IMG/VR virus record: IMGVR_UViG_3300020202_000162
Coordinates: 1 to 38,515 of that record
DNA: 38,515 nucleotides
From: a virus
Strand: one strand, 5' to 3'
Positions 3,947-36,500 of the stretch are shown one piece after another; the first letter of the stretch is position 1, and every line of letters starts with the position of its first letter. The translations under genes were made by a program, and so were the position numbers. The notes beneath the pieces were generated by a model, which did no database searches, was not told the origin of the DNA, and worked only from the letters and a program-made list of their open reading frames with translations.

Positions 3947-4635
3947 GACTTGCCCCCCATGTCTGCCTGTTCCAGCGCCAGCCGAGCGATCCGCCGAGCC
4001 GAAGCGTACATCTCCCCGCGATGCGCGGCATCATTCGGCCCGGTAGGGTTCGTCAGCCGATCGTCTGGAAGGTTCCCGCCCAAAGCGACGATCGAGCGCA
4101 GAGCGGCAATGCACGAAGGGGGCGCCTGTTCAGCCTCCGCCCGCCCCCCGAAGATCTCGCCGAGCCGCTCCAGGAAGGGCTCGGCATCAAGGACATCGTG
4201 ATGTTTCGTTCGATCCAGTGGGTCGCTATGAACGGTGTACCGCAGCTCCTCCACCAGCGCCACGACCTCCTTCAGCGCCCTGCGATATCCCTCCTCATGC
4301 TCGTCCGCGATCCGTTCGCACTTCAGGGCATCTCGGTCCCGGTCGATCGCGTCGGCAAGCCTACTGAACCGACCCGGCAGCGATCCTTGCGGCGGGAGAG
4401 ACGATTGCTCATAACGTCGACCAAACTCACGCAGCCGATCCCCGAATCGCGGTTCGCTCGAAGGCGGCGGGGGCGGGTTGACCGGCTTGGCCGGCTCACC
4501 GCTGGTCGCTCCGCGCGTGATGTCCCACTCCGGGCAGAGACTGTCGGGATCGGGCGGGCCCGCCGGGTTGCCGTAGCCCTCCGCCTCGGCGTCAGCCGGG
4601 TCGCCGTCTAGCATGGTGTTGCATTGCTCAGACAC
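3943..4635 (-). CDS. Phage early protein of unknown function, mostly helical
   Basis: 230 residues. GTG 4635 was chosen because GGAGG precedes it by 6 bases; it lies 2 bases past the stop of the exonuclease gene. The first 65 residues are acidic and Pro-rich, likely disordered. Residues about 75-200 are rich in Arg, Glu, Ala and Leu and probably alpha-helical. No catalytic motif or known family is recognised. The stop overlaps the GTG of the following zinc-ribbon gene. Confidence 0.65.
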   Translation of the reverse strand: MSEQCNTMLDGDPADAEAEGYGNPAGPPDPDSLCPEWDITRGATSGEPAKPVNPPPPPSSEPRFGDRLREFGRRYEQSSLPPQGSLPGRFSRLADAIDRDRDALKCERIADEHEEGYRRALKEVVALVEELRYTVHSDPLDRTKHHDVLDAEPFLERLGEIFGGRAEAEQAPPSCIAALRSIVALGGNLPDDRLTNPTGPNDAAHRGEMYASARRIARLALEQADMGGKS

Positions 4636-5278
4636 GGGCCACCTCCTGCACATCGGGGCTTAGCTCGGTCGCCGTCCGCCACCCGAGCCAGAACCGCTTC
4701 GAGAGAGCCTTCGCTACCTGAACGGTCGCCCGGACATCAGCGAGTGCGTCGTGTGCCTCGATGTGCTCGATACCCAGCCACTCGCAAAGGCTGCCGAGCT
4801 TGTGGTCCTTCGGCTGCATCGGAGCGATGAAGGAAGCCCACCGAGCCAGGGAGACCGTGTCCAGCGGCTCGAAGCAGGCAGCGGGGCAGAACTCCCCGGC
4901 GGTCTTGTACCACGACACCAGGAACGGGCAGTCGAAGCGCTCCACATTGTGGCCGGCGAGGCGGGCCACCGTGTACGTCTTCCCACGGGGCGAGGTCTTC
5001 TCCATGGTCGCGTAAGTCCGGAAGAAGGAGGAGAGGAGAGACATCGCGCGGCCTGGAGGGATGGCCTCGGTCATCCAGGTTCCAGCGTCGTAGATGTTTG
5101 CCGCCAGCGCTTCCGGCTCGGCCTTCGCGTGATCAAACTGGAGCTTCATCTCCAGCGAGTCGATCTCCCGGAAGGCCCCATCAACCGCAAGGGCAGCAAT
5201 TTGGATGATCGGATGCCGAAGCGGATCCAGCCCGCCGGTTTCCAGATCGAAAAAGACGATGCGGTCGGCTGGCTTCAT
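4628..5278 (-). CDS. DnaQ-like 3'-5' exonuclease (DEDDh)
   Basis: 216 residues. Exo I is FFDLETGG (D11, E13), Exo II is AGHNVERFD (D116), and Exo III is AHDALADVRAT (H176, D181). This is the complete DEDDh active-site set for metal-dependent 3'-5' hydrolysis. No polymerase domain is attached, so it is a stand-alone nuclease like those many phages encode for DNA turnover or proofreading in trans. The ATG overlaps the stop of the HTH gene. Length agrees with stand-alone family members of about 180-230 residues. Confidence 0.88.
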   Translation of the reverse strand: MKPADRIVFFDLETGGLDPLRHPIIQIAALAVDGAFREIDSLEMKLQFDHAKAEPEALAANIYDAGTWMTEAIPPGRAMSLLSSFFRTYATMEKTSPRGKTYTVARLAGHNVERFDCPFLVSWYKTAGEFCPAACFEPLDTVSLARWASFIAPMQPKDHKLGSLCEWLGIEHIEAHDALADVRATVQVAKALSKRFWLGWRTATELSPDVQEVARV

Positions 5279-5517
5279 GCTCCCTCTCCTTTGATGTCAT
5301 TGATTTCGAGGTGGACACCGAGCACCTCCGCAATCCGGGTCAGCCTTTCCAGGAGCGCCGTTTCGAGCTCGCGGAAGATCCGGTCCGGGACCGGCTTCCC
5401 GCCGAGGTACCGAGCCAGAGTCCGCCGGCTGACGCCCACATCCTCCTGCATGGCGGTCTGCCAACGAGAGCCCCAGAGAAGCTCGGCGTGCTGGCGGAGG
5501 CGGTCACGGTCGGTCAT
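5275..5517 (-). CDS. Small helix-turn-helix DNA-binding protein
   Basis: 80 residues, ATG 5517 overlapping the previous stop. Residues about 18-45 read as a helix-turn-helix: a first helix around WQTAMQEDVG and a recognition helix SRRTLARYLGG. The remainder is helical and may dimerise. It resembles small Cro/XRE-like regulators in length and layout, but the specific family is not certain. It lies between two early genes and could regulate early transcription. Confidence 0.65.
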   Translation of the reverse strand: MTDRDRLRQHAELLWGSRWQTAMQEDVGVSRRTLARYLGGKPVPDRIFRELETALLERLTRIAEVLGVHLEINDIKGEGA

Positions 5518-5819
5518 GATCTGGCCTCGGTGAGATGGCTCGCGTACCGCGTCAGTACCCGCGCAAGCCTCTCTGCCAATGCCTCGGGTGCTACAGTCTT
5601 CCATTGCAGGGGGGTCACAAGGATGAAGGCGAAGGCCCGGGCAAAGGTCGCGGTGAGCTTGAAATAGTTGTCGCCGTCCAAATAGTTGTCGCCGTCCTCG
5701 ACTCCAAAGAAGTCGGGGAGATGATAGGCGGCCGGCCACGCTCGGAGGAGCGCCTGAGCGGTAGACAAATCCTCGGACCGGCATCCGATCCGGACGCCTT
5801 CAATGTCGCGGTCGGTCAT
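5514..5819 (-). CDS. Hypothetical early protein with 6-residue tandem duplication
   Basis: 101 residues, linked at both ends by ATGA overlaps. The centre contains DGDNYLDGDNYF, encoded by a perfect 18-bp tandem repeat (5662-5697). The C-terminal half is Ala/Leu/Arg-rich and helical. There is no known family, signal peptide or membrane segment. Confidence 0.65.
   Translation of the reverse strand: MTDRDIEGVRIGCRSEDLSTAQALLRAWPAAYHLPDFFGVEDGDNYLDGDNYFKLTATFARAFAFILVTPLQWKTVAPEALAERLARVLTRYASHLTEARS
5662..5697. repeat. 18-bp perfect tandem repeat (2 copies)
   Basis: Two identical 18-bp units, 5662-5679 and 5680-5697, lie in frame in the 101-residue early gene and duplicate six residues containing DGDNY. 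An in-frame duplication of this kind is consistent with replication slippage. Confidence 0.9.
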
Positions 5820-9265: not shown

Positions 9266-10244
9266 GGGACACCTCCGGCATTTCGCGGACTCGTAGGTCT
9301 TCCGGCCATTCGGCAGGATCGCCACCCTTCCGATCCTTGAGACGGATGGACCACATCCCCTGTAGGTCTTCTTTCTTCGTTCCCCACGGCCACATCTCCC
9401 CAGAAACCGCGCACCCATCCCAAACAGGCCCAGCGCCGAGCTGCTTGCCGAAGAACGCCACGCCTGCCGCTGCACACTGTTTGCGAATAGAGCGCATCCA
9501 GGAGATGTCCATCGGCCGAGCGCTGGGGCCGCTCTCGGCGCCGCAGATAACCCAGGAGATTCCGGAGAGATCGACTGCCCCCAGATCCTCGAGCAGCGGC
9601 TCTGCGGATACAAAGCGGACAGCAGCCGGCACCCCCCGAAGATGCCCAACGCGTTCGCCCCACTCCTGACGCCTCTCCGCCGAGACACCGAGCCAGACAT
9701 TCCTAAGGGGCCATGGCTGAATGGCAGCACGGTCTGTCTCCTCGGCGCCCATCCCCTGGGTTCGGGCATACCAAGCCACGGAGGCGCTCGGCTGCTCTTC
9801 GCCGATTTGCCAGTACTTTTTCCCGTCACTTCCGAGCCACGCAAACCAGCTCGGCAACCGCTCCGCCCGCTTCGTCAGAACTTGATGTGTGTGCTGCGGC
9901 GTCGCCGCCATCACGCCGAAGCATGCAGCAATATGCTCGTTCGGCACCCACGAACCGAACATATCCGTCATGTCACACCAGAAGTAGGTCGTCGGCGTCC
10001 GCCGGCGCAGTACCTCCTTAAGCTTCGAGACATCTAGGAAAGGCTCGACGAGCTCCCGCCCGCGCCCGTGTACGCCGCCGAATGGAGGAAGGCCGCGACG
10101 TGACTGAAAGCGGGAGCTATAGCAAAATGTGCATCCGCTCGATACCTTCTCGCAGAAGTGCCCAACCTTCGAGGGGTCGGACTTCAGGCGGGCGCGCAGA
10201 GGGTTGATGGTGTGGCCGGTCCATTCGATCGACGTGGCTCCCAT
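9258..10244 (-). CDS. DUF5131 family protein (phage Gp37/Gp68-like)
   Basis: 328 residues from ATG 10244, ATGA-coupled to the upstream gene. It opens with SIEWTGHTINP and has Cys31, Cys38 and Cys41 in the pattern CxxxxxxCxxC. It continues with TYFWCDMTDMFG, HTHQVLTKRAERLP and VSAEPLLEDLGAVDLSGISWVICGAESG. These are hallmark segments of DUF5131, a widespread phage and prophage family with a radical-SAM-like three-Cys cluster and unknown reaction. Length fits the family (about 230-350). Some members sit beside three-Cys-motif partner genes, but none is seen here. An RNA or base modification role is sometimes suggested but unproven. Confidence 0.88.
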   Translation of the reverse strand: MGATSIEWTGHTINPLRARLKSDPSKVGHFCEKVSSGCTFCYSSRFQSRRGLPPFGGVHGRGRELVEPFLDVSKLKEVLRRRTPTTYFWCDMTDMFGSWVPNEHIAACFGVMAATPQHTHQVLTKRAERLPSWFAWLGSDGKKYWQIGEEQPSASVAWYARTQGMGAEETDRAAIQPWPLRNVWLGVSAERRQEWGERVGHLRGVPAAVRFVSAEPLLEDLGAVDLSGISWVICGAESGPSARPMDISWMRSIRKQCAAAGVAFFGKQLGAGPVWDGCAVSGEMWPWGTKKEDLQGMWSIRLKDRKGGDPAEWPEDLRVREMPEVSLA

Positions 10245-10546
10245 CAATGCACCTTCTCTTCGGTGGTCTGGCAGTTGAGCAGAGCCGTCAGCGCCGGCCA
10301 CACCCGATCGATCTCGCCGCGGGACCGCAGCAGCAAGAGCGACTGAATGACCGCCGCGAGCTCCGCCTCGCCGTCTCGAGCGGCTGCCGCCCGAGCCAGA
10401 CCCAGCGCCTCGCCCGCGTCGATTTCGACGAGATTGTCCCAGTCGGGTGGGATGGTCTCGCGAGACGGATCATCCGGCTCGGCTCCAGCGCGCCAAGCAG
10501 CCACTGCTGCGGCGGCAATTCTTCGAGCACACTCTGAAATGCTCAT
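10244..10546 (-). CDS. Hypothetical helical early protein
   Basis: 100 residues with AGGAG upstream of ATG 10546. The N-terminus (SISECARRIAAAAVAAWRAG) and C-terminus (Leu/Ala-rich, IDRVWPALTALL) are helical, separated by an acidic loop. It resembles small phage proteins of unknown function located near recombination genes. It lies between the RusA gene (9-base gap) and DUF5131 (overlap). Confidence 0.6.
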   Translation of the reverse strand: MSISECARRIAAAAVAAWRAGAEPDDPSRETIPPDWDNLVEIDAGEALGLARAAAARDGEAELAAVIQSLLLLRSRGEIDRVWPALTALLNCQTTEEKVH

Positions 10547-18436: not shown

Positions 18437-19465
18437 ATGGCACGCCCAAGCCTTCCGAAATCCGCTAAGTTCCAGATGCTGGTGGCCCTTCTCCGGCGGC
18501 CGGCCGCGCATTGTCGTGGATACCTGGAGCTTCTCTGGGACGCTGCGTACGAGAACGGGGAGGAATTTCTTGGCCCTGCCGCCCTGGTTGAGCACATAGC
18601 TACATGGGACGGCGAGCCGGGCGCTCTTGTTGCTGCTCTGGTTGACTGCGGATCCGCATCTCCCTCTGGGGCTGGTTTCATCGAGCTCGATACCTCGCGC
18701 GCAGAATCACGGTCGGGATACCGAATCCACGATCTATGGGACCACGCTCCAGACTATGTCCGCAAGAGGTATAATAGGGAACTTCAACGCAGGGAGACGG
18801 GTTCGCGGTATAGAGCCAGTGATGCAATTAGAGGAATTGACCGGTCAGTGACCGGTCGGTGTCCGCCGAATGGACAGACTTGTCCGCCGAACGGCGCACC
18901 TCCCGCTCCCGCTCCCGCTCCCGCTCCCGCTCCCGCTCCCGCTCGGGAAGACGCGCGCGCGGAGAACCTCGCGGGGGTCGAACCCCCGGACCCCGCCTCC
19001 TCAGGAACCCAGAACGGCAAGAGCAAGAGGGTGAAAGAGCTCCCCTTCGACCCCCTCACCGTACCTCTGCCGCCGATTCTCGACACACCCGCCTTCCGAG
19101 CCGTATGGGAAGCTCGCGTCGAGGAGCGATCCGAGGGGCCGCCACGGAATCGCCTGAGACCGAAGCAGACGGAGGTGAAGCTCTCCAAGCTCGCCGAGGT
19201 CGCTTCCAAGCATGGGATCGACGCGGCCATCAGCTGCGTCATTAGGGCAACATCGGGAGGATGGAGCGGAGAAGTCTTCGCAGAGGATGAGGCAGGTATC
19301 CGCAGTGGCAACGGCAACGGAGGCTCCCATGGTCAACAGCAGGCTCGACGCTTTACTCCAGCGATTAGAGGCGCAGCTCCTCCCGACCCCCAGCGACTTG
19401 CCCAGCTCCGAGCTCGATCTCAAGCCGCCATCTGGGTGGATGATGACGATCCGCCGAAGGCTTGA
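18437..19465 (+). CDS. Putative replication initiator-type protein with (Pro-Ala)n linker
   Basis: 342 residues, ATG 18437 preceded by AGGGAG. Residues about 1-130 look like a DNA-binding N-domain: RPSLPKSAKFQMLVALLRRP and later YRIHDLWDHAPDYVRKRYNRE. Next comes a linker of repeated Pro-Ala (hexanucleotide run 18901-18941). A C-terminal domain has KQTEVKLSKLAEVASKHGIDAAIS. This N-domain/linker/C-domain plan next to a DnaC-like loader is typical of phage replisome-organiser proteins. It overlaps the DnaC-like gene by 137 bases, which is unusual, so the loader could start later. Confidence 0.55.
   Translation: MARPSLPKSAKFQMLVALLRRPAAHCRGYLELLWDAAYENGEEFLGPAALVEHIATWDGEPGALVAALVDCGSASPSGAGFIELDTSRAESRSGYRIHDLWDHAPDYVRKRYNRELQRRETGSRYRASDAIRGIDRSVTGRCPPNGQTCPPNGAPPAPAPAPAPAPAPAREDARAENLAGVEPPDPASSGTQNGKSKRVKELPFDPLTVPLPPILDTPAFRAVWEARVEERSEGPPRNRLRPKQTEVKLSKLAEVASKHGIDAAISCVIRATSGGWSGEVFAEDEAGIRSGNGNGGSHGQQQARRFTPAIRGAAPPDPQRLAQLRARSQAAIWVDDDDPPKA
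18901..18941. repeat. Hexanucleotide tandem repeat (CCCGCT)n
   Basis: About seven copies of a 6-bp unit (CCCGCT), in frame, encode alternating Pro-Ala in the putative initiator. The length may vary by slippage and would then lengthen or shorten the interdomain linker without breaking the frame. Confidence 0.85.
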
Positions 19466-25476: not shown

Positions 25477-25540
25477 TTGGCCCTCCCTTCGTCGCTCCCA
25501 TCCTATCACCCATCCCCGCCCTCGAAAGAAGTGAGACAGT

Positions 25541-25594
25541 TGCAACGGATGAAACCGTCGCAACAAGCGAAACGGATGCAACGGACGCAACTGT
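25541..25594. repeat. Array of six 9-bp repeats (operator-like)
   Basis: Six consecutive 9-bp units of form YGMAACNNN: TGCAACGGA, TGAAACCGT, CGCAACAAG, CGAAACGGA, TGCAACGGA, CGCAACTGT. On the minus strand the core is GTTGCR or GTTTCR, the same core and period as the array at 14720-14755. It lies 65-118 bases upstream of ATG 25476. Confidence 0.8.
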
Positions 25595-27338: not shown

Positions 27339-27638
27339 TCAGATCTCCGAGAGGGTGATGCCGAAAGCTCGGTCAGGGTCGGCGAGGACGCGGGACATCA
27401 CCGCTCGCTGATCTGGCGCCGCGTCGGCCGGCTCGTCGAGATCGAGATAGACCACGATCCACCGGCCGTGGCTGTACATCACGGTGAGCTGCGCTTCGTC
27501 CGGGCTGTACGGTGGGGTGTAGTCGCCAGGGTGATCTGGCGTCCAGAGGTGCGCTACGACGGCATCGTAGAGCTGGCGGCGGAGGGTCTCGGTGTAGACG
27601 AGAAGGGCGGAGGCGGTAAACTGCGGGTGCTGCTGCAT
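27339..27638 (-). CDS. Hypothetical protein
   Basis: 99 residues from ATG 27638 with AGGAGAC upstream. A helix (TASALLVYTETLRRQLYDAVVAHL), a Pro/Asp loop, then beta strands (AQLTVMYSHGRWIVVYLDLDEP) and a final helix. Looks like a small alpha/beta domain. First gene of the minus cassette. A 12-bp palindrome (CTCCGGCCGGAG, 27667-27678) lies upstream, a possible operator. Confidence 0.6.
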   Translation of the reverse strand: MQQHPQFTASALLVYTETLRRQLYDAVVAHLWTPDHPGDYTPPYSPDEAQLTVMYSHGRWIVVYLDLDEPADAAPDQRAVMSRVLADPDRAFGITLSEI

Positions 27639-27841
27639 GGGAGCTGGTCTCCTGTGCGGTGGTAGGCTCCGGCCGGAGGTGCAACTCTTGCCGGGGCCGC
27701 TTCGGTGTCTCGGGGAGGAACGCCCTCCCCCTGGGGGAGACTACGGCACTCTCACGCGCCCGCGACCGGCCCGCACCGCCTACACTGAGATAGGACACGA
27801 CCGATTTCCGCCCTTCCTCGCTCTGCTGCTACACTCGGAGC
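27639..27841. other. Divergent intergenic region of the 27.6-27.8 kb genes
   Basis: About 200 bases separate the minus operon (ATG 27638) from the plus gene (ATG 27842). It holds the palindrome CTCCGGCCGGAG (27667-27678), one GTTGCA core on the minus strand near 27682, and two TACACT elements (27781-27786 and 27830-27835). No gene is evident. Confidence 0.5.
27830..27841 (+). promoter_or_regulatory. Possible leaderless promoter (TACACT) of the 110-residue gene
   Basis: TGCTACACT, an extended -10-like element, ends 6 bases before ATG 27842. There is no ribosome-binding site of AGGAG type right at this position, apart from CGGAG close to the ATG. No strong -35 is visible at 16-18 bases. Confidence 0.4.
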
Positions 27842-28174
27842 ATGACCGACTCAGAATTCAGTCAAGCCATGGCGCTGGCGCTCAGGGTCTGCCGCGAAGC
27901 GGCGGCAGCCGGTTTGCCGATCGAGACAATGCTGACGCGAGTGGAGGACGGTATCGAGGCCGCGATGTCCTCTGGCCTCAGCAGCTATGGCTCCGCAGCC
28001 GAGATGCTCAGCATGCCGCCGGACGCGGTAGCCGAGCTGGAGGCTCTCCGCGAGATCATCGGCGCCGTCGGCGAGGTCGCGGCGATCGGCTCGAAGCTCC
28101 CGCCGGAACCTGCGCCTACCGCGGTGCCCACCACCACCGGCTCCTTCCCGGTTCCGGCCAACCTGGGGGCGTGA
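27842..28174 (+). CDS. Hypothetical protein
   Basis: 110 residues from ATG 27842. Helical first half (FSQAMALALRVCREAAAAGLPIETML) and a Pro/Thr/Ala-rich C-terminus. No known family. First of a plus-strand run ending in the portal gene, whose stop overlaps the next ATG (TGATG). Confidence 0.6.
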   Translation: MTDSEFSQAMALALRVCREAAAAGLPIETMLTRVEDGIEAAMSSGLSSYGSAAEMLSMPPDAVAELEALREIIGAVGEVAAIGSKLPPEPAPTAVPTTTGSFPVPANLGA

Positions 28175-28650
28175 TGCGCATCCGTCCGATTACCCGAAAC
28201 GCAGCGATGGCCTTCCTGGCGGAGAACCACCGTCACCTCCGCCGAGCCCTGGCAGGCTGGCTTTTTGGCGTTGCACTGGTGGACGACGCAGGGGAGATTC
28301 AGGGTATTGGTTGCGCCGCACGACCATCTGCGCGGCTGCTCCAGGACGGACTGACCATCGAGATCGCCCGCGTCTGCACCAACGGTGTGCCGAACGGATG
28401 CAGCCAGATCTACGGAGCGCTTCGGCAGGCTGCTCGAGCGCTCGGCTACCAGCGGGTGGTGACCTACACGCGTGAAGACGAGCCGGGGACGTCGCTCCGT
28501 GCGGCCGGATTCGTCTGCGATGGACCGGCCGGGGGTGGCGAATGCAGCCGGCCGAGCCGGCCGCGCAGGCCCTCGGAAGACCCATCACCGAAGGTTCGAT
28601 GGAGCTGGTCGAGCAGCTCCGCGGAGCCCCGCCCGTGGACTCCCGCCTGA
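28174..28650 (+). CDS. XF1762-family phage protein (acetyltransferase-like)
   Basis: 158 residues from ATG 28174. RPITRNAAMAFLAENHRHLRRALAG, GVALVDDAGEIQGIGCAARP, EIARVCTNGVPNGCSQIYGALRQAARALGY, then VVTYTREDEPGTSLRAAGF match the standard order of the XF1762 family. These are short GNAT-like proteins common in phages, with unproven activity. The last 30 residues are Ser/Pro-rich and overlap the next gene, so the functional domain probably ends near residue 128. Confidence 0.75.
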   Translation: MRIRPITRNAAMAFLAENHRHLRRALAGWLFGVALVDDAGEIQGIGCAARPSARLLQDGLTIEIARVCTNGVPNGCSQIYGALRQAARALGYQRVVTYTREDEPGTSLRAAGFVCDGPAGGGECSRPSRPRRPSEDPSPKVRWSWSSSSAEPRPWTPA

Positions 28651-28883
28651 TCCCCGCGTTCCTCGCCGCCGGCTGGTTCCTGGTGACCCTGGGGCTCTGG
28701 GGCGGGTGCGGTCGGCCCTGGTGGGTCTGGCCGATGTCGGTGGGGCTCGGGCTCCTGGTGGTCGGTGGGGCGTACGGGTGGGCAGCGGTGACTCTGACCG
28801 CAGCGGGGAAGGTGGGCGAGGAGACGGAGCACCCCAGCAGGATTCCGGAACCAGGGGCTGGGCCGCGGAGGGTCGGGGGGTGA
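28542..28883 (+). CDS. Two-TM membrane protein
   Basis: 113 residues from ATG 28542, overlapping the previous gene by 109 bases. Hydrophobic segments at about residues 36-53 and 61-82 contain many Trp and Gly (GCGRPWWVWPMSVGLGL). Charged, Pro-rich C-terminal tail. No known family; a membrane-located accessory protein. Confidence 0.55.
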   Translation: MQPAEPAAQALGRPITEGSMELVEQLRGAPPVDSRLIPAFLAAGWFLVTLGLWGGCGRPWWVWPMSVGLGLLVVGGAYGWAAVTLTAAGKVGEETEHPSRIPEPGAGPRRVGG

Positions 28884-29398
28884 GCGAAGCCGCTCGCGTC
28901 TTAAAGTTCGCCACCAAGGCCACCGATGTCTGGCGGACGCCCCCTACGCTATGGGGTCCGCTCAACAACGAGTTTCACTTCGTCCTCGACGCCGCCTGCG
29001 AGAGCCACAACCAACTCGCGCCGCACGGTCTTTGCGCTGATCGCGGAGACGACGCGCTTCTGATGCCCTGGCACACCTACGGCGGAGCGGTATGGTGCAA
29101 TCCGCCATACTCGCGGATTCGCCCCTGGATGGAGCAGGGCATTCGAGCGGGACGGGTGGTTCCGGTCGTCATGCTCATCCCGGCGGACACGTCTACCCGC
29201 TGGTGGTTCGAATGCGTCGCGCATCTGGCCGCGGAGGTGCGCTTTTTGGTCGGACGGGTACGCTTCCGGGGAGTAGACGGGGAACCTTATCAGCGAAGGA
29301 CCGGAGGAGGAAGCGGACTGAGCACGCCGAGCGCCCTGGTCATCTACCGGCCTTCGGGTGGCCCACCCCGGTATTCCTACGTCGAGACGCCCCGTTGA
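28880..29398 (+). CDS. dam: Phage N6-adenine DNA methyltransferase (Dam, phage type)
   Basis: 172 residues from GTG 28880 (GTGA overlap). WRTPPTLWGPLNNEFHFVLD contains the SAM-binding region, and GDDALLMPW is followed by CNPPYSR with the catalytic NPPY at 74-77. This compact order is that of phage-type DNA adenine methylases of about 160-180 residues (PF05869-like). It is a different family from the D12 methylase at 20084. Protection from restriction is the likely role. It directly precedes the portal gene and overlaps its start. Confidence 0.85.
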   Translation: MSEAARVLKFATKATDVWRTPPTLWGPLNNEFHFVLDAACESHNQLAPHGLCADRGDDALLMPWHTYGGAVWCNPPYSRIRPWMEQGIRAGRVVPVVMLIPADTSTRWWFECVAHLAAEVRFLVGRVRFRGVDGEPYQRRTGGGSGLSTPSALVIYRPSGGPPRYSYVETPR

Positions 29399-30816
29399 AA
29401 GTCTCTCTTACCGCAGCCCTGGCCTCCGCAGCCGGGGACATCCAGAAGCGGGCGAGCGCCACCCCTTCCCGCGAGATCCTCTCTCCAGCGCAGTTCGGCG
29501 GCTCCGGCTACAGCTACGGCGGTGGGCAGGCAGTCCAGACCGACTGGGACGAGAGGCGGGCGATCCAGGACGGATACCGATCGAGCACCTGGCCGTTCGC
29601 CTGCATGGACCGGCTTCAGGGCGCGGGCAGCTCTGTCCCCTGGGTGGTCTACGAGCGTCGTGGCCGACGCCGGCGGGAATGGGAGCGGCAGGACGGGCAC
29701 GATTACGAGGTCTGCATTGAGTACCCGATGCCCGGCCTGCTTTCCCGCCAGACTCTGATCTCGGGCATGATTCTCTCCCTCTGCTGCGGGGGCAACTCCC
29801 TCTCTCGAGTGATCTATGTCCGGCGTGGCGGCGAGGAGGTCCCTGTCGAGCTCCAGCCGATGTCGACCGCACTGTGGCGACCGGTGCCCGTCGGCGACTT
29901 TGACAGGCCGGAGCTCGTGACGAACCGGGAAGGTCGGCAGCAGTGGGCGAAGTGGATCAAGGGCTACAAGCGGACGGACCGGAGCGATCCACCCATCGAG
30001 CCCTGGCGGGTTGTTCACGCGCAGAAGCTCGACCCGGGCGTCTGGATCTGGGGCATGAGCCCCATGCGGCCAATTGCTCCCATCGTGGATATGGACCGAG
30101 CCATGGTCGCCTGGAACGCCCGCATGCCGCAGCAGAACATGGTGCCCGCCGGCGCCTTCATCGACTCCAGAGTTAGCACCAACGAACAGGCCAGAGAAAA
30201 GGCTATAGCGCTCCGCACCCGCCTGAACGACCCTTCGTTGTCCGGGGCCCCCTTCGTCTTCGGTCCGGGCACGACGTGGCTGCCCATGGGGCACACCATG
30301 GTCGAGGCAGACTGGAACGCGAGTCGCGAATTCAACCGCGACGAGGTCTGCGCCGCCTTCAATATCTCTCCGACGCTCTTCATCAGCGATGCGAAGTACG
30401 CCAACATGGAGCAGGGTCGAGCGCACCTCCTGGAGAACGGGGCACGAGACTTGCTTGAGCTCCTCCAAGACGCGTTCAACACCGCCTTGGTGCCGGACAG
30501 CCGCCGGCGGGAGGTGTACATCGCCTACGACCTGTCGGACGTCCCCGGTGTGCGTGACACCCTTCCAGCGCGTCTCGAGAGTCACGAGAGGGCAGTGCGC
30601 AGCGGCATCCCAGTGAACAGCTCGATCTATCTCCACGGCCTAGATGTGCAGCCGGTCGAAGGCGGCGATCAGCCGTTGGTCCCAGCCACGCTGGTACCCC
30701 TCCGGCACCTCATCGAGGAGCCTGCGGCGTCCCCTGCGGACGATGGGGAGGATGACGGTTCACTTCCCGTCCCATCGTCGGGATTGACAAAGGAGCCCGA
30801 ACAGACAGACGATTAG
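29395..30816 (+). CDS. HK97-type portal protein
   Basis: 473 residues from TTG 29395, which overlaps the methylase stop. The sequence has portal features: WPFACMDRLQGAGSSVPWVVYER (clip/stem entry), LSLCCGGNSLSRVIY, EPWRVVHAQKLDPGVWIWGMSPM, and a central helical region with EFNRDEVCAAFNISPTLF. A C-terminal acidic tail ends in TDD. Length fits the family (about 400-500). The portal forms the dodecameric ring through which DNA is packaged by the terminase at 21.1-23.9 kb. It is separated from TerL by 5.5 kb of accessory genes. Confidence 0.85.
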   Translation: MKVSLTAALASAAGDIQKRASATPSREILSPAQFGGSGYSYGGGQAVQTDWDERRAIQDGYRSSTWPFACMDRLQGAGSSVPWVVYERRGRRRREWERQDGHDYEVCIEYPMPGLLSRQTLISGMILSLCCGGNSLSRVIYVRRGGEEVPVELQPMSTALWRPVPVGDFDRPELVTNREGRQQWAKWIKGYKRTDRSDPPIEPWRVVHAQKLDPGVWIWGMSPMRPIAPIVDMDRAMVAWNARMPQQNMVPAGAFIDSRVSTNEQAREKAIALRTRLNDPSLSGAPFVFGPGTTWLPMGHTMVEADWNASREFNRDEVCAAFNISPTLFISDAKYANMEQGRAHLLENGARDLLELLQDAFNTALVPDSRRREVYIAYDLSDVPGVRDTLPARLESHERAVRSGIPVNSSIYLHGLDVQPVEGGDQPLVPATLVPLRHLIEEPAASPADDGEDDGSLPVPSSGLTKEPEQTDD

Positions 30817-30820
30817 AGCC

Positions 30821-31873
30821 GTGAGCAGGCAAACCACGGCTCGAAGCGCGATGATCGCAGCTTGGCGACTGGTGACCCGCGGGCTGGCCGTACCCGCCGG
30901 CGCTTGCGAGTGCGCTCTGTGCGGAGGCAGCCCGCACCCCGCCGCCAAGAAAGTCGTTGAATTCCTGCCTGCGCACTTCCCGCACCCCGACCTGATCGAC
31001 CCTACGAGAGCGATGGTTTGCGCCGGATGCGTAGCGATCTTCGGAGGCAAGCCCAGCAAGATCACTCCGCCGTTCCGCACGCGCCACGTGGCGGTAATGG
31101 CGGACGGTACCCTGCGCACTCACGAGAGAGTCCGAGAACTTTATCAATATCTCTCTGCGCCCGAAAGCGTGGCGCTTCTAAGTTGGGCAGTCTCTCTCAA
31201 GAAACACCACCTCGTGCATGCGCGTGCAGCGGTGCCAGGGCGCCTCTTCGTTGGGAGCGACAACGGCACGCTCGAATACGGCGCCGCTGAAAGTGCCCTC
31301 CTGCCCATCGTCGCTGAACTGTTGGCAGGCTTTGGACTGGACACGATCATCGAAGGGACCTACTCCTCCCATCAAATCCAAGCATTCGGAGCGTCGCGGT
31401 GGGCCGCCCTGGAGAGTCGGATCGAAGATCTCCGTCGGCGCTCGCCGTCAATGTTGTCTTTAATCGTCTATTCCACACCGAAACAGGAGCGGCTTGCGGG
31501 TCGCGCGGTAAGGACAGACCCACGCGCGGAAAGGACAGACCCAATGAACGCGGAAGACTCGGCTGCGGCATTCCTCCTTGGCGAGATCGCCCACGCAAGT
31601 GCCAAGAGACGGGAGGATGGCCTTCAGTTCTGGGGCGGCTTCTTCCTTCACCGCCTGAACCGGTTTCGCCGCCTTGACCTCGATAGCTTGGTTTCTCGTC
31701 TCATGGCAGAATGCGCTGTCGCTCCGCACCAAGCCGAGAGCGTGACCTCAATCCTCCGTGAGATCGAGAAAGAGGGGATGACGGCCGCCGTTTCCGAGGC
31801 CATCCGCCAGCGACCGGCGCTTCTCGCCGCTCTGGCTTACGACCACATCCAAGGAAAGAGGGTGGCGAAGTGA
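30821..31873 (+). CDS. csf1: Csf1-like type IV CRISPR protein with C-terminal Cas11-like extension
   Basis: 350 residues from GTG 30821, 4 bases after the portal stop. The N-terminus has a zinc-finger pair: C31-x2-C34 and C67-x2-C70, with EFLPAHFPHPDLIDP between. This is the Csf1 (type IV large-subunit) arrangement. Typical Csf1 is about 220-250 residues. The extra 110 residues after RTDPRAERTDP are fully helical (FLLGEIAHASAKRREDGL, RFRRLDLDSLVSRLM). They resemble Cas11 small subunits, which in type IV-B are usually a separate gene between csf1 and csf2. Csf2-like and Csf3-like genes follow directly. The assignment is strong by motif and context, but the homology is distant. Confidence 0.75.
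   Translation: MSRQTTARSAMIAAWRLVTRGLAVPAGACECALCGGSPHPAAKKVVEFLPAHFPHPDLIDPTRAMVCAGCVAIFGGKPSKITPPFRTRHVAVMADGTLRTHERVRELYQYLSAPESVALLSWAVSLKKHHLVHARAAVPGRLFVGSDNGTLEYGAAESALLPIVAELLAGFGLDTIIEGTYSSHQIQAFGASRWAALESRIEDLRRRSPSMLSLIVYSTPKQERLAGRAVRTDPRAERTDPMNAEDSAAAFLLGEIAHASAKRREDGLQFWGGFFLHRLNRFRRLDLDSLVSRLMAECAVAPHQAESVTSILREIEKEGMTAAVSEAIRQRPALLAALAYDHIQGKRVAK
31510..31543. repeat. 13-bp direct repeat before the internal start of the Cas11-like region
   Basis: AAGGACAGACCCA at 31510-31522 and again at 31531-31543, 21 bp apart and in frame, giving the duplicated RTDP linker. The second copy ends immediately before ATG 31544, and its AAGGA is positioned as a ribosome-binding site. Confidence 0.85.
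31544..31873 (+). CDS. cas11: Possible internally translated Cas11-like small subunit
   Basis: In-frame ATG 31544 inside csf1 with AAGGA at 31531-31535, 8 bases upstream, gives 109 residues. The product is entirely helical, the right size for Cas11 (about 100-150 residues). Internal translation of a small subunit from a large-subunit gene is known in several type I systems. Whether it happens here, or the domain works only as a fusion, cannot be decided from the sequence. Confidence 0.35.
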   Translation: MNAEDSAAAFLLGEIAHASAKRREDGLQFWGGFFLHRLNRFRRLDLDSLVSRLMAECAVAPHQAESVTSILREIEKEGMTAAVSEAIRQRPALLAALAYDHIQGKRVAK

Positions 31874-32643
31874 AACCGACGACGATCAAGCTCCGGTTGG
31901 AAGCGCTCTCGCCAATAGTCCACGGCGACATTGGGAGCGGCAAGATCGGAAACGCGATGGCTTTCAGGCGCATGGAAATTCGAGGAGTACCTACGCCCGT
32001 GATCTCCGGCAACGCTCTCGGCGGCATGCTTCGAAGGATCATCTGGCGCGCTGCGTTTGACCGCTTTGGGATCGATCGCACCAACATGGAGACGAAGCAG
32101 TGGGATCGGCTCTATGGCTCGCTTGCGAACGGCGGACACCTAGAAAAGTCGGAAGTGGCGACCGATCCAAACAGGCAGCGTGAACTGCGCCAGATTCTGC
32201 CGCCTCTTTCCGCCCTTGGCGCGGCCCTCTATTCCTTCATGATGGCGGGAAACGCGAGCTTTCCGTTCCTGTTTCCTGAGACCGACCTTGACCCTGAACT
32301 GCTGATCGAAGAGGTCAGCCTCGCGCGCCACGTGGACCGCGGCGAGCAGGACCCCGAGCAGTCTGGCGTGACTCCGATGCCCGTCACGATCGAAACCATC
32401 AAGACGGGGACGGTGTTCTCTGGCGAGATCCTATGGCTCGCGAGACCGCACTCCCCCGCAGAGGTAGGCTGCGTGGTATGGGCACTCGATAGGCTCGCCC
32501 ATATCGGAGGAAAGGGACACGTCGGATTCGGCCGCGTTCGCGCTGAGCACGACGGTGACCAGGCCACCGCGGCGGCATTCGAGGAGTGGCTCGCGGACCA
32601 GACCGTCCCCGCCTTCTTGCGGGCGCTGGCGGCCGAGCTGTGA
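31870..32643 (+). CDS. csf2: Csf2-like RAMP (Cas7-family backbone subunit)
   Basis: 257 residues from GTG 31870 (GTGA overlap). It begins with a beta strand and LSPIVHGDIGSG (14-24), then VISGNALGGMLRRIIW (44-59), the hallmark of Csf2/Cas7 proteins (SGNSIRGxLRR). A Gly-rich loop, IGGKGHVGFGRV, lies at 212-223. Cas7-family subunits wrap a guide or scaffold RNA in a helical filament. Tight overlaps with csf1 and csf3 imply stoichiometric production. Family assignment is strong by motifs; type IV membership comes from the neighbours. Confidence 0.75.
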   Translation: MKPTTIKLRLEALSPIVHGDIGSGKIGNAMAFRRMEIRGVPTPVISGNALGGMLRRIIWRAAFDRFGIDRTNMETKQWDRLYGSLANGGHLEKSEVATDPNRQRELRQILPPLSALGAALYSFMMAGNASFPFLFPETDLDPELLIEEVSLARHVDRGEQDPEQSGVTPMPVTIETIKTGTVFSGEILWLARPHSPAEVGCVVWALDRLAHIGGKGHVGFGRVRAEHDGDQATAAAFEEWLADQTVPAFLRALAAEL

Positions 32644-33377
32644 AACTACTGCGGGTTCGCTGCGAGCTTGCAACGCCAGCCATCGTGGACGCCGGTCCCG
32701 TCCACCTTGACGGCATTCTCTGGGCCGCTTCGGCGGAGCACAGGGAAGCCTTTCGCGTCGAGGTGCCACGCCTCCCGGTTTGGAGCGTCACCCTCTTCGG
32801 CGAGACGGTGGCACTGGCGTCCGCGCTGCTCCCCGGGCACTACCGGCACCAGCAAGTCTCTCTGGTAAAACGTCGGGACGGCATCGATGTCCAGCATCTG
32901 GGGGGTCGGCTCCATCGTGGGCTCGGTCCAGGCAAGGACAAGCTGCGCTACGCGCTGGCGATCGACGGAACCCTGGAATGGGTCGTAGTAGCGGGCCGTC
33001 GCCGGCCGGTACTGAAAATGCTCCGCCGCGTCCTCGCGCTTGGTCGCGACCTCCGGAGCGGACACGGAAGGGTCAGAGAGTGGGATGTGCTGGAGGACCC
33101 GGAGGAGGATTTGGCGTCTGTACTGGTCAGCCCGGACAGTGTGTCGCGCCGCAATCTTCCTCCGCGCTGGTGCTCCTCGTCTTCCGCCGTGAGCCGCGGA
33201 GCGCTCCGTCCGCCATACTGGAATCAGCACGTCGATATCGTGCCGGCCGGTGCTGTCGTGCGGCTAGATCCGGCAGTGCTTTACGAGGTGCGGAAAGGAG
33301 TTGAGATTGCCCCAAGGCCTCGACCTGCGGACATACGCCGCGCTCTGCGGGACGCGCCGATTCAGACGGAAGATTGA
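32640..33377 (+). CDS. csf3: Csf3-like RAMP (Cas5-family subunit)
   Basis: 245 residues from GTG 32640 (GTGA overlap). N-terminal RAMP strand with LATPAIVDAGPVHLDGILWAA (10-30), which matches the ATPxxL...PxHLDGILA pattern of Csf3. A conserved Gly-rich loop, LGRDLRSGHGRV, lies at 134-145. Cas5/Csf3 caps the end of the Cas7 filament and contacts the RNA 5' handle. No catalytic residues are visible, as expected of Csf3. The CysH-like gene begins 71 bases before its end. Confidence 0.7.
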   Translation: MKLLRVRCELATPAIVDAGPVHLDGILWAASAEHREAFRVEVPRLPVWSVTLFGETVALASALLPGHYRHQQVSLVKRRDGIDVQHLGGRLHRGLGPGKDKLRYALAIDGTLEWVVVAGRRRPVLKMLRRVLALGRDLRSGHGRVREWDVLEDPEEDLASVLVSPDSVSRRNLPPRWCSSSSAVSRGALRPPYWNQHVDIVPAGAVVRLDPAVLYEVRKGVEIAPRPRPADIRRALRDAPIQTED

Positions 33378-34047
33378 TCTCGCGCGACAGTGCGTAGAGT
33401 CTTGGCTCGCTCAGTGCGCACGACCGGCGGTGAGCTGCGGAGGAGGCAAAGACTCGACAGCTCTTCTCCAACTGGTTCACGCCGTCGAGCCATCCGTACC
33501 GGTCTACTGCGCAGATCCGCCCAACCCGTTGCCGGATCGTGCTCCTCATCTCCGCCGCCTGGAGATGGCCGACGGATCGTCATTTTGCCGCGTTCCATAC
33601 CCGTGGGACGTCGAGGCCGTGCTGAACGGCAGGGAGGCCTACCCGGCACTCCTGAAGATCCGCCGACTAGAGGAGCGCCTCGCGTTGGACGAGGTCGATG
33701 GCGTGGCGCTCGGAATCCGGGCGGAGGAGAGTTATGGGCGCTGCATGAACTTCCGTGTCCGCGGGCCTCTCTACCTCCATTCTTCGGGCAGGTGGGTCTG
33801 CACACCGATTGCGTCATGGACCGCGGAGGAGGTCGTCGGCTTCGTGCTCGCGCATGACTGCCTTCCGCTTAATCCCGTATACTTCAAGCTGGAACTAGCG
33901 CCGGCGCTCAATCACCTGAGGGATGGCACCTGGTTTCCCCGCGAGATAGCTGATGGTCAGGGTTACGAGGATTGGTTGCGCTTCCATTACCCCGAACTGG
34001 GCGAGTTGTACCGAAGAGCTGCCAACTTGACACCTCGACGCGCATAG
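33307..34047 (+). CDS. cysH: CysH-like PP-loop (PAPS reductase family) protein of the csf cassette
   Basis: 246 residues from TTG 33307; AAGGAG lies 6 bases upstream. PP-loop SCGGGKDS at 43-50, followed by VDGVALGIRAEESYGRC and a second motif block, PIASWTAEEVVGFVL, and LNPVYFKLEL. PAPS reductases and related sulfurtransferases use this ATP-pyrophosphatase motif to activate substrates. A CysH-like gene is the recognised accessory of type IV-B CRISPR-Cas loci, with unknown reaction. It overlaps csf3 by 71 bases, so it is expressed with it. Sulfate assimilation is unlikely, since no other such gene is present. Confidence 0.75.
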   Translation: MPQGLDLRTYAALCGTRRFRRKIDLARQCVESWLAQCARPAVSCGGGKDSTALLQLVHAVEPSVPVYCADPPNPLPDRAPHLRRLEMADGSSFCRVPYPWDVEAVLNGREAYPALLKIRRLEERLALDEVDGVALGIRAEESYGRCMNFRVRGPLYLHSSGRWVCTPIASWTAEEVVGFVLAHDCLPLNPVYFKLELAPALNHLRDGTWFPREIADGQGYEDWLRFHYPELGELYRRAANLTPRRA

Positions 34048-34064
34048 ACGAGACTGGATGCGAC

Positions 34065-34865
34065 ATGCCCCGCTTCGTCCCGATCGAGGTCAAGCTCTCC
34101 GCTGACGCCGTCAGCGTCTCAAAACGCGAGGTGACATTCTACGGCAACGCGTTCAACAACCGCGACCGCCAAGGGCACCGAATCCTCCCTGGCGCATGGA
34201 CCAAGACCATAGCGCAGCAGCTCCCCAAGGGGGAGATCAAGCACTTCCGGAACCACGAAGTCAGCATTGGCCCAATGCGCGAGCTGGTACAAGACTCCTA
34301 CGGCCTCCTGTGCACGGGGTACTGCTCGAAGACCCGGGCCGGCGACGAGTACCTGGAGCAGGCGCTGGACGGCACCCTGACACACGCCTCCGTCTATGCC
34401 AAGATCGTTCGCGAGCGCGCAGAGTACGTCACCGAGGACGATCCCGTGACCGGACAGAAGGTGGAGACGCTCAACATCGGGGAGGCCATCCTGCTTGAGG
34501 CCGGTCTTGTCGACCTCGCCCCAGCCAACAATCTCGCGACCCTGGTGGCGGTGAAGAACCTCGCCGGGTCAGACTTCTACGACCTTCTCACTGATCTCGA
34601 CTACATCGTGAAGGACTTCGCCCTCTCGTGCAGCACCGATAGACGGCTGACTGCGGAGGAAAGGCGAGTAGCGAAAGCTCTGCTCGGGCTCCGCAAGGTG
34701 CTCGATGACCAGGGCGATATCCTCAAGGCACTGCTGGCGCCGGGAGACGTCACCCAGACCTCCGGGTCTGCGCCGAGTCTAGCCACCCCCGCACATGCCG
34801 AGACGCAGCCCGACCTGACCGCCATCCTGGAGAGCATCCGGGGGCGTGGTCAGATCCACCTGTAA
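34065..34865 (+). CDS. HK97-type prohead protease
   Basis: 266 residues from ATG 34065. Starts with VPIEVKLSADAVSVSKREVTF and has the FRNHEVSIGPM histidine (H64) and THASVYAKI with Ser109, typical of the prohead protease active site. A long acidic, low-complexity tail follows residue 190. The protease trims the capsid scaffold during maturation. Family length is usually about 200-280. It is the normal neighbour of portal and capsid, separated from the portal by the csf cassette. Confidence 0.85.
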   Translation: MPRFVPIEVKLSADAVSVSKREVTFYGNAFNNRDRQGHRILPGAWTKTIAQQLPKGEIKHFRNHEVSIGPMRELVQDSYGLLCTGYCSKTRAGDEYLEQALDGTLTHASVYAKIVRERAEYVTEDDPVTGQKVETLNIGEAILLEAGLVDLAPANNLATLVAVKNLAGSDFYDLLTDLDYIVKDFALSCSTDRRLTAEERRVAKALLGLRKVLDDQGDILKALLAPGDVTQTSGSAPSLATPAHAETQPDLTAILESIRGRGQIHL

Positions 34866-34901: not shown

Positions 34902-36500
34902 ATGCCCACCGTCGAAGAGATCCAGACGGAAATCGTCAAATCCAACGCCGCGGTCAACGAGACGCTCAAGGCGATCAAGACCCAGCTCGACAACCACGAG
35001 GCCGCCATCGCCGAGATGAAGAAGAATGGTGACCGGCCGGAGGCGACCGCCGAGCACGCCGAGACCATGAAGAAGCTCACCGCCACGCTGGATGGAGCGC
35101 AGACCTCTTTGGCTGCTGCACAGGCCGAGCTTGTGGCCCTCAAGGCGTCAACCCAGCACGACATCGAGGAGCTGCAAAAGGCGATGCAGCGGAGCGGCAA
35201 TGGTGGCGCGGGCGGCGAGGCGTTCAAGACCCTCGGAGAACGAGCCGTCGAGCTGATCCAGGAGAACGAGGCCGCCTTCCGTGACTACGCCAATGGTAGG
35301 GCCCCAAATGCGCGTTTGCTGCCTCACGTGACCTTGAAGTCCTTCGGCGACGAGCCGATCTTCCGCGGATACGAACCGAGTGACCTGAAGAAAGCTCTTC
35401 AGACGAACGCCACGACCAATTTCATCGCTCCCTACCAGATCCCCGGATACATCCCGCTCCGCCGGCGCCGTCTCCGGATGCGGGATCTTATCCCCATCAT
35501 TCCGGCGCCCGGCGGCGGCGAGATCCGCTATGTCCGGCAGACCGGCTTCGCTCCGACTGCTGCGCCCTCGTCGGTCGTCAGCATCACCCAAACCGGAGGC
35601 CTTGCGACCGCAACCGTTACCGGCCACGGGTGGGAGGATCACGACCGCATCCGAATCGCTGGCGCGAACCAAGCTGGTTATAACGGCGATTTCTACATCA
35701 AGGTGGTGGACGCCAATACGTTCACCTTCACGGTCCCGTCGGGAACGGTGAGTCCGGCCACCGGAACCATCACCGCCTTCCGGATGAACAACTATGGTGC
35801 TGCCGGTTGGGTGGCCGAGGGCGCGACGAAACCCGGCGCCCAGATGTTCTTCGAAGAGCGGACGGCGCGGGTGCAGACGCTCGCCCACCACATGAAGGTC
35901 ACTCGGCAGGTGCTCGCCGACATGCCGGGGCTCCAGAACAACATCAACACCGACGGCATTTACGGCCTCCTACGGGCCGAGGATACCGGGATCCTGTATG
36001 GTTCTGGCACCGGCGCCGAGATGCAGGGCATCCTCACAGACCCGGGCCGGCAGCAGTACAAGTGGAGCGAGGGGAAGACGAACGACACGAAAGTGAAAGC
36101 GATCCGCCGGTCGCGGACCTTGGTCGAGATGGCGGACGGCGAAGCCTCGGGCTGCGTCCTTCACCCCACCGTGTGGGAGGACATCGAGCTCGAAACCGGG
36201 AGCGACGAGCATTACATCTGGGTGAACCGGATGAACGGCCTCAACCCGGACGGTGAGGAGATCTGGCGGATGCCGCTCGTGCTCACCCGCGCGATCAAGG
36301 CGGAGACCTGGCTGGTGGGGGCCTTCGCTCAGGCGACCTCGCTCTACGACCGGGAGCAAGCCAATGTTCGCTGGAGCGATTCGAACGAGGACGACTTCAT
36401 CAAGAACTTGATGACGGCACTCTTCGAGGAGCGGATCGCCCAAGCCATCCGCCACCCAGAGCTGCTGGTCGAGGGAACCTTCGACAGTGCCCCGGCCTAG
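34902..36500 (+). CDS. HK97-type major capsid protein with inserted Ig/FCCH-like domain
   Basis: 532 residues from ATG 34902. Residues 1-98 form a delta-type coiled-coil scaffold, likely cleaved by the protease upstream. The HK97 fold follows: LPHVTLKSFGDEPIFRG, KALQTNATTNFIAPYQIPGYIPL, then WVAEGATKPGAQM, TRQVLADMPGL and RAEDTGILYGSGTGAEMQGIL. Residues about 224-293 are an insertion with VSITQTGGLATATVTGHGW, IAGANQAGYNGDFYIKVVD and NTFTFTVPSGT. It resembles FCCH/Ig-like modules of phage surface proteins. It lies near the E-loop region and probably decorates the capsid surface. The family is typically 300-420 residues long. Confidence 0.88.
   Translation: MPTVEEIQTEIVKSNAAVNETLKAIKTQLDNHEAAIAEMKKNGDRPEATAEHAETMKKLTATLDGAQTSLAAAQAELVALKASTQHDIEELQKAMQRSGNGGAGGEAFKTLGERAVELIQENEAAFRDYANGRAPNARLLPHVTLKSFGDEPIFRGYEPSDLKKALQTNATTNFIAPYQIPGYIPLRRRRLRMRDLIPIIPAPGGGEIRYVRQTGFAPTAAPSSVVSITQTGGLATATVTGHGWEDHDRIRIAGANQAGYNGDFYIKVVDANTFTFTVPSGTVSPATGTITAFRMNNYGAAGWVAEGATKPGAQMFFEERTARVQTLAHHMKVTRQVLADMPGLQNNINTDGIYGLLRAEDTGILYGSGTGAEMQGILTDPGRQQYKWSEGKTNDTKVKAIRRSRTLVEMADGEASGCVLHPTVWEDIELETGSDEHYIWVNRMNGLNPDGEEIWRMPLVLTRAIKAETWLVGAFAQATSLYDREQANVRWSDSNEDDFIKNLMTALFEERIAQAIRHPELLVEGTFDSAPA

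Follow-up and report, generated by a model that had tools for sequence, protein, structure and literature searches.

A phage type IV-B csf1 gene that encodes a Cas11 domain and a candidate internal start codon

The solved type IV-B complex contains six Csf2 and five Cas11 subunits, and Csf1 is not visible in it; the authors of the structure named the lack of Csf1 density as a gap (PMC7937560; this and the other papers are cited here from part of their text). Cas11 made from internal starts has been reported for types I-B, I-C, and I-D (PMC11899642), small subunits fused to large ones are recorded for several type I subtypes in the 2025 classification (PMC12669027), and a csf1-csf3 fusion has been mentioned in type IV (PMC8175902). 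A limited literature search, which covered titles and the starts of abstracts and had some main type IV surveys outside it, returned neither a Csf1-Cas11 fusion nor internal translation in type IV, and neither is mentioned in the parts available of PMC7937560, PMC10848311, PMC12669027, PMC8175902, PMC11899642, PMC7684278, and PMC11519345. We regard the Csf1-Cas11 fusion described here as a variant of type IV-B and claim no priority over earlier publication.

A type IV-B cluster among virion genes

The locus lies in virus record IMGVR_UViG_3300020202_000162, the whole of which (38,515 bases, 38.5 kb) was analyzed and is referred to as the window. It is a type IV-B cluster, csf1-csf2-csf3-cysH, flanked by a portal gene and by prohead protease and capsid genes that were identified with Pfam (Table 1). 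The core genes csf1, csf2, and csf3 are all present (PADLOC typeIV_Cas8, 7.7e-10, with typeIV_Cas7 and typeIV_Cas5 as in Table 1), and the window also has a cysH-like gene and encodes a Cas11 small subunit. No separate cas11 gene, which is usual in type IV-B and not strictly defining, lies between the fusion and csf2; the csf1 ORF spans the whole Cas11 domain and overlaps csf2 by 4 nt. No CRISPR array was seen in the window by TRF or in a search for repeats of at least 20 nt within 150 nt, the record being possibly a fragment and shorter repeats lying outside the search, and neither dinG nor cas6 was matched among the 10 window ORFs scanned with PADLOC.

Table 1. Features of the csf locus and its flanking genes in the window.
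Feature	Position	Strand	Details
Phage portal protein, directly upstream	29092-30816	+	Pfam Phage_portal 1.2e-32; ends 4 bases before csf1 GTG
csf1-cas11 fused ORF	30821-31873	+	GTG start, 350 aa
Csf1 (Cas8-like large subunit) part	30821-31486	+	residues 1-222
Linker	31487-31543	+	residues 223-241, predicted disordered
Tandem repeat, copy 1	31502-31522	+	21 bp; encodes RAVRTDP
Tandem repeat, copy 2	31523-31543	+	21 bp; encodes RAERTDP; 20/21 identical to copy 1
AAGGA, Shine-Dalgarno-like motif	31531-31535	+	8 nt before ATG 31544; anti-SD duplex -5.3 kcal/mol
Candidate internal start ATG	31544-31546	+	in frame; homologous junction has a start codon in 9/9 fused genes
Cas11 (small subunit) domain	31544-31873	+	residues 242-350; 109-aa putative product upon internal start
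csf2 (Cas7)	31870-32643	+	PADLOC typeIV_Cas7 E 3.8e-31
csf3 (Cas5)	32586-33377	+	PADLOC typeIV_Cas5 E 1.1e-21; ORF limits, real start possibly further downstream
cysH-like (PAPS reductase family), type IV-B accessory	33301-34047	+	Pfam PAPS_reduct 3.2e-8; PHROG phosphoadenosine phosphosulfate reductase 1.7e-9; ORF limits, real start possibly downstream
Prohead protease, directly downstream	33972-34865	+	Pfam Peptidase_S78 2.4e-4
Capsid gene	34902-36500		Pfam

The cluster sits in a block of virion genes, with the portal and prohead protease genes in the window and, in a second fused locus, L016 (2129-5001), roughly 30 bases downstream of a terminase gene (Terminase_6C). This placement in both loci suggests late expression together with the virion genes. 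In L017, L037, and L042, the fused gene neighbors genes for DNA ligase, RusA, or a methylase. The window encodes, immediately before the portal gene, a Mom-like DNA modification protein (27637-28650; PHROG 2.9e-23) and a Dam methylase (28472-29398; Pfam 2.5e-27); near the fused gene of L048, a weak Mom match at 9846-10364 (2.5e-5) fell below the cutoff. The window also contains a perfect CTCCCG hexamer repeat of 7.5 copies (18900-18944) and an imperfect 36-bp tandem repeat in two copies (25519-25590; 75%).

Csf1 and Cas11 parts of the fused protein

An earlier note on this DNA, made from the sequence, had described Csf1 as about 110 residues longer than usual, and this is right. Separately encoded Csf1 proteins are 214 to 245 aa long in 11 of the 12 cases translated (the twelfth, from Gordonia, is annotated at 168 aa, its start probably being wrong), and when 10 of them were aligned with the window protein, all stopped at the start of the linker, stray terminal residues aside. 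The PADLOC Csf1_0_IV match is likewise confined to residues 12 to 223 of 350 (E 7.7e-10). Residues 10 to 225 of the full-length AlphaFold2 model matched the type IV-A Csf1 chains 7xg1_A and 8rc3_G with a Z score of 9.6 each, and the N-terminal parts of the nine fused proteins introduced below gave 99.3% (8.2e-21) against a free Csf1 profile with hhalign, and at most 0.6% against Cas11.

The extension, also said in that note to be helical, was predicted by AlphaFold2 to be all-helical (last 109 residues, pLDDT 95, pTM 0.87), with an alignment of seven fused proteins, and no free Cas11, as input. Comparison of its fold with Cas11 had been named beforehand as a check, and a type IV-B Cas11 chain indeed heads the structural matches: among 123 chains compared with VIA-align, the best was 7jhy_g, whose molecule name is 'Csf4 (Cas11)' (Z 10.0, rmsd 2.6, 102/109 residues, model residue 1 being aligned to residue 20 of the chain). 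The runner-up was CasB, the type I-E small subunit, at Z 4.5, and all others were below 4; this fold match depends on VIA-align, and helical bundles may reach middling Z scores by chance. Residues 238 to 350 of the full-length model matched residues 486 to 608 of chain I of type I-C Cascade with Z 4.9. At the profile level, hhalign of the C-terminal parts of the nine fused proteins gave 95.9% (P 6e-9) against 13 free Cas11 proteins and 93.9% (1.6e-7) against 16 viral free Cas11 proteins, and control profiles of csf1, csf2, csf3, and cysH gave at most 0.2%. Searches of PDB, NCBIfam, and PADLOC with the single 109-residue sequence gave nothing, and Foldseek with the Cas11-domain model returned no PDB or BFVD match at an E of 0.001 or less; the top-ranked BFVD entry, A0A0N7CBP1 (137 aa, prob 0.99, TM 0.61), equals Orf41 of Skermania phage SPI1 in length, a likeness by length alone. 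Together, the predicted fold and the profile comparison confirm that the 3' part of the window gene encodes a type IV-B Cas11 domain.

Between the two parts lies the only long stretch of the full-length model with a pLDDT below 50 (residues 223 to 241; residues 1 to 3 also fall below this value), and its sequence is poorly conserved. The earlier note had reported a duplicated RTDP linker encoded by a 13-bp direct repeat; the repeat is real, and its true length is 21 bp, AAGGACAGACCCA (13 bp) being the identical 3' core. It is one of three families of direct repeats of at least 20 nt within 150 bases in the whole window, and so is not due to chance. The duplication adds seven residues to the linker and, among the fused genes, was seen in the window only. 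For this reason a regulatory role of the repeat was set aside, and a tie between the duplicated linker and the mechanism, which had been suggested, finds no support. We propose that the duplication arose later, as a local alteration of the window linker.

A fused clade and the start codon at its domain junction

Scans of viral contigs yielded nine distinct fused genes, those of the window, L016, L017, L037, L042, L046, L048, L054, and L055 (L049 is the same gene as L048, and L040, L041, L043-L045, L047, and L050-L053 are repeats of the same contigs). No Csf1 as long as that of the window was found with another C-terminal role; the eight others bear the same domain. In a Csf2 tree of 40 rows, the eight fused loci with a usable csf2 form one side of a branch with a support of 100/100. 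The tree omits L020 and L023, which are repeats of L019 and L021, and L037, in which csf2 is truncated; L026 is marked 'free' in it, though no Cas11 was found there. A search of phages and plasmids with the window proteins gave no Csf1 match and only distant Csf2 matches, scans of viral contigs with the window's single Csf2 and Csf3 gave nothing, and two scans of genome contigs with the fused-clade alignments gave no relative, the degenerate patterns being narrow and cellular or prophage copies possible. L002, the first viral contig that seemed to be related to the window protein, was dropped because its match was false, lying on the strand opposite a terminase-like gene. A Rhodovastum plasmid (L004) has the closest Csf1 by eye, yet it cannot be called the sister group because it lies on a long branch with L026 in the Csf2 tree.

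Comparison with homologues in which cas11 is separate, as the earlier note had advised, showed that Csf1 proteins of normal length have their own cas11 downstream. In the named loci L003-L015, cas11 is annotated as its own gene in 13 of 13, mostly as 'hypothetical protein' (the Cas11 naming is by position, by profile and, for SPI1 only, by PADLOC). The order csf1, cas11, csf2 is the same in Skermania phage SPI1 and in 11 of 12 plasmid loci, and no csf1 is listed beside cas11 in L014. Two of the plasmids, both from Promicromonosporaceae, have a small ORF of about 76 aa separating csf1 from cas11 (L010, 2807-3037; L013, 2852-3085). In viral loci, 18 ORFs upstream of csf2 were candidates for cas11, and the free-Cas11 profile matched 16 of them (E at most 1.3e-7); in L027, Cas11 is in another ORF, and a homing-endonuclease-like ORF, so identified by eye, lies directly upstream of csf2, between cas11 and csf2 (4208-5020). 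In several free systems (SPI1, Thermococcus, Halomontanus, Natrinema) csf1 and cas11 overlap by a few bases, as they often do, so few changes would be needed for a fusion in which the csf1 stop codon is lost and the start of cas11 retained. This is most likely how csf1-cas11 arose from two neighboring genes, csf1 and cas11.

In L035, Cas11 is linked in a second and different way, with Cas7 as the partner. Its csf2 ORF (4374-5663, + strand, 429 aa) has a 173-residue insert between the first strands and the VPVISGN motif, and the insert matches the viral free Cas11 profile (E 4.7e-15; also 3e-13). Here csf1 ends directly upstream of csf2 with no separate cas11 between them, and the linkage would yield a 1:1 ratio.

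An in-frame ATG at 31544 with AAGGA 8 bases upstream had been noted earlier, and the sequence bears this out exactly. Of the 16 in-frame start codons counted across the window ORF, this one has the best Shine-Dalgarno (SD) motif; by itself the motif is no better than chance, as an equally good match precedes 70 of the other 330 in-frame codons and codon permutation gave a p of 0.19. The weight of the internal start comes from relatives. All nine fused genes have a start codon at the junction, ATG in eight and TTG in L016, located 28 to 30 residues before a Phe-Trp (FW) pair that is invariant in all nine. It is preceded by an SD-like motif in eight: besides the window, these are, with their anti-SD duplex energies, L016 (GGGAGGA, before TTG, -11.4), L055 (AGGAGG, before ATG, -11.6), L017 (AGAGAGG, -9.1), L042 (AGAGGAG, -9.1), L037 (TGAGG, -6.9), L046 (AGAGGA, -5.8), and L048 (CGGAG, -5.8). 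L054 has no SD-like motif (+3.6, the worst of its 23 in-frame starts); its junction ATG (4612) is kept, and the codons before it encode a proline run. L054 and L055 were both fetched after the pattern had been noticed; the former fits by its ATG only, the latter strongly.

The nine duplex energies were better than those of codon-permuted seven-codon stretches of the same ORF (Fisher 6.2e-5) and also ranked ahead of the remaining in-frame starts in it (Fisher 0.0018), p values that overstate independence, since the fused genes are related. The SD is stronger at the internal start than at the assumed csf1 start in six of the nine genes, and the median anti-SD energy is -6.9 at the nine fused junctions versus -1.9 at 11 annotated free cas11 starts (medians by hand). 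Two columns of a seven-row alignment, the first and the one at the junction, are the only ones with start codons in at least five rows. A shuffle of synonymous codons with the amino acids held, carried out on seven genes, showed SDs that were not better than expected (Fisher p 0.20); the SDs are carried by Glu and Arg codons before the Met, so conservation could act at the protein level. The domain boundary is marked by an in-frame start in 9/9 genes and an SD-like motif in 8/9 (all except L054), with a nonsignificant synonymous shuffle. The recurrence of start and motif makes it likely that the internal start yields free Cas11, and this comparison supports the earlier suggestion that a free small subunit, here a putative product, is made by internal translation.

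Two putative products and their known counterparts

As the one best explanation, csf1-cas11 probably yields both the fusion and free Cas11. The domains, their folds, the operon, the fused clade, and the positions of the start codons were established by prediction and comparison; from these we infer the use of the internal start, the stoichiometry, and the position that the fusion takes within the complex. A single phage gene would encode two subunits of the type IV-B effector RNP: translation from GTG 30821 would produce the Csf1-linker-Cas11 fusion, and initiation at ATG 31544 inside the gene, aided by AAGGA, would give a free Cas11 of 109 aa. By analogy, the fusion would be present once, at the base of the complex, with its tethered Cas11 domain starting the small-subunit filament, and free Cas11 copies would occupy the other places along the Csf2 (Cas7) filament. 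Given the five Cas11 subunits of the solved type IV-B complex, one fusion per complex would be too few, and the internal start could supply them.

It is unlikely, in our view, that only the fusion is made, with Cas11 permanently attached to the C terminus of the large subunit, a single copy in each complex, the small-subunit filament lost, and the junction Met a structural residue before the first helix. Such an arrangement would be consistent with the result of the synonymous shuffle and with the lack of an SD in L054, and some large subunits are known to end in a fixed domain resembling a small subunit (a type I-F example is given in a figure legend, in the part of PMC7684278 cited here); however, it does not account for a Met or start-compatible Leu at the junction in nine of nine proteins, with SD-like motifs in eight, amid a poorly conserved linker, for SDs as strong as those of L016, L017, L042, and L055 (-9.1 to -11.6), or for the five Cas11 subunits of the solved complex (PMC7937560). 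Free Cas11 might instead be cut from the linker by proteolysis, and the predicted disorder and variable sequence of that stretch would suit a cleavage site, but equal yields of Csf1 and Cas11, with no Cas11 excess, would then result, and the start codons and SDs would be left unexplained; we consider this highly improbable.

The chance that the extension is not Cas11 at all, and is an unrelated helical domain gained by Csf1, appears very slight indeed. The missing sequence matches in PDB, NCBIfam, and PADLOC and the lack of a significant result from Foldseek alone would agree with it, whereas the VIA-align score of Z 10.0 to a type IV-B Cas11 (next, 4.5), the profile match of 6e-9 with clean controls, and the position in the operon, which is that of a free cas11 with no separate gene between fusion and csf2, all argue for Cas11.

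If csf1-cas11 does give both fusion and free Cas11, the layout documented for large-subunit genes of type I, from which Cas11 is translated internally, would recur around another large subunit in type IV, and class 1 would have reached the arrangement of one gene for two subunits repeatedly, or would keep returning to it. A Csf1 covalently tied to Cas11 also offers a handle for placing Csf1 in the type IV-B complex. For annotation, a phage csf operon without a cas11 gene may still encode Cas11. More tentatively, and with some doubt, we suggest a phage-restricted type IV-B clade with programmed internal initiation on csf1-cas11, in which the fused copy would seed the filament covalently, the ratio between the two start sites would help to set filament length on the RNA, and the RNP would be made late in infection; with L035, phage type IV-B systems would have joined Cas11 to a partner protein on two or more occasions and by different means.

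Among known systems, the type IV-B Csf complex of Mycobacterium sp. strain JS623 (PDB 7jhy) shares with the window a cluster of csf1, csf2, and csf3 as well as the cysH-like gene that typifies IV-B, and the predicted fold of the window C-terminal domain is that of its Cas11; JS623 has a separate cas11 gene, whereas cas11 in the window is the 3' part of csf1, in a phage genome and between virion genes. Skermania phage SPI1 (KR011061, Orf40-Orf44) also carries a phage-borne type IV-B system with the same gene order, but its cas11 (Orf41) is separate, with few-base overlaps with csf1 and csf2, and it lies in another part of the Csf2 tree. The Fuxiviridae of Bathyarchaeia viruses likewise have a virus-borne type IV-B system with a CysH-like gene; they differ in having five genes, Fuxivirus_1 to Fuxivirus_5, with all typical components and a mini-array, and the cited text of PMC10848311 never uses the word 'fusion'. 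The csf1-csf3 fusion of type IV also involves Csf1, but its partner is Cas5, and the cited part of PMC8175902 does not mention a small subunit or an internal start with it. In types I-B, I-C, and I-D (cas8b, cas8c, and cas10d), as in the window, the small subunit is the C-terminal part of the large one, and an in-frame start with a ribosome-binding site lies inside the gene (PMC11899642, PMC7684278, each in part). Those systems are type I, whereas the large subunit in the window is Csf1, the predicted small-subunit fold is that of type IV-B, and the free product is a putative one.
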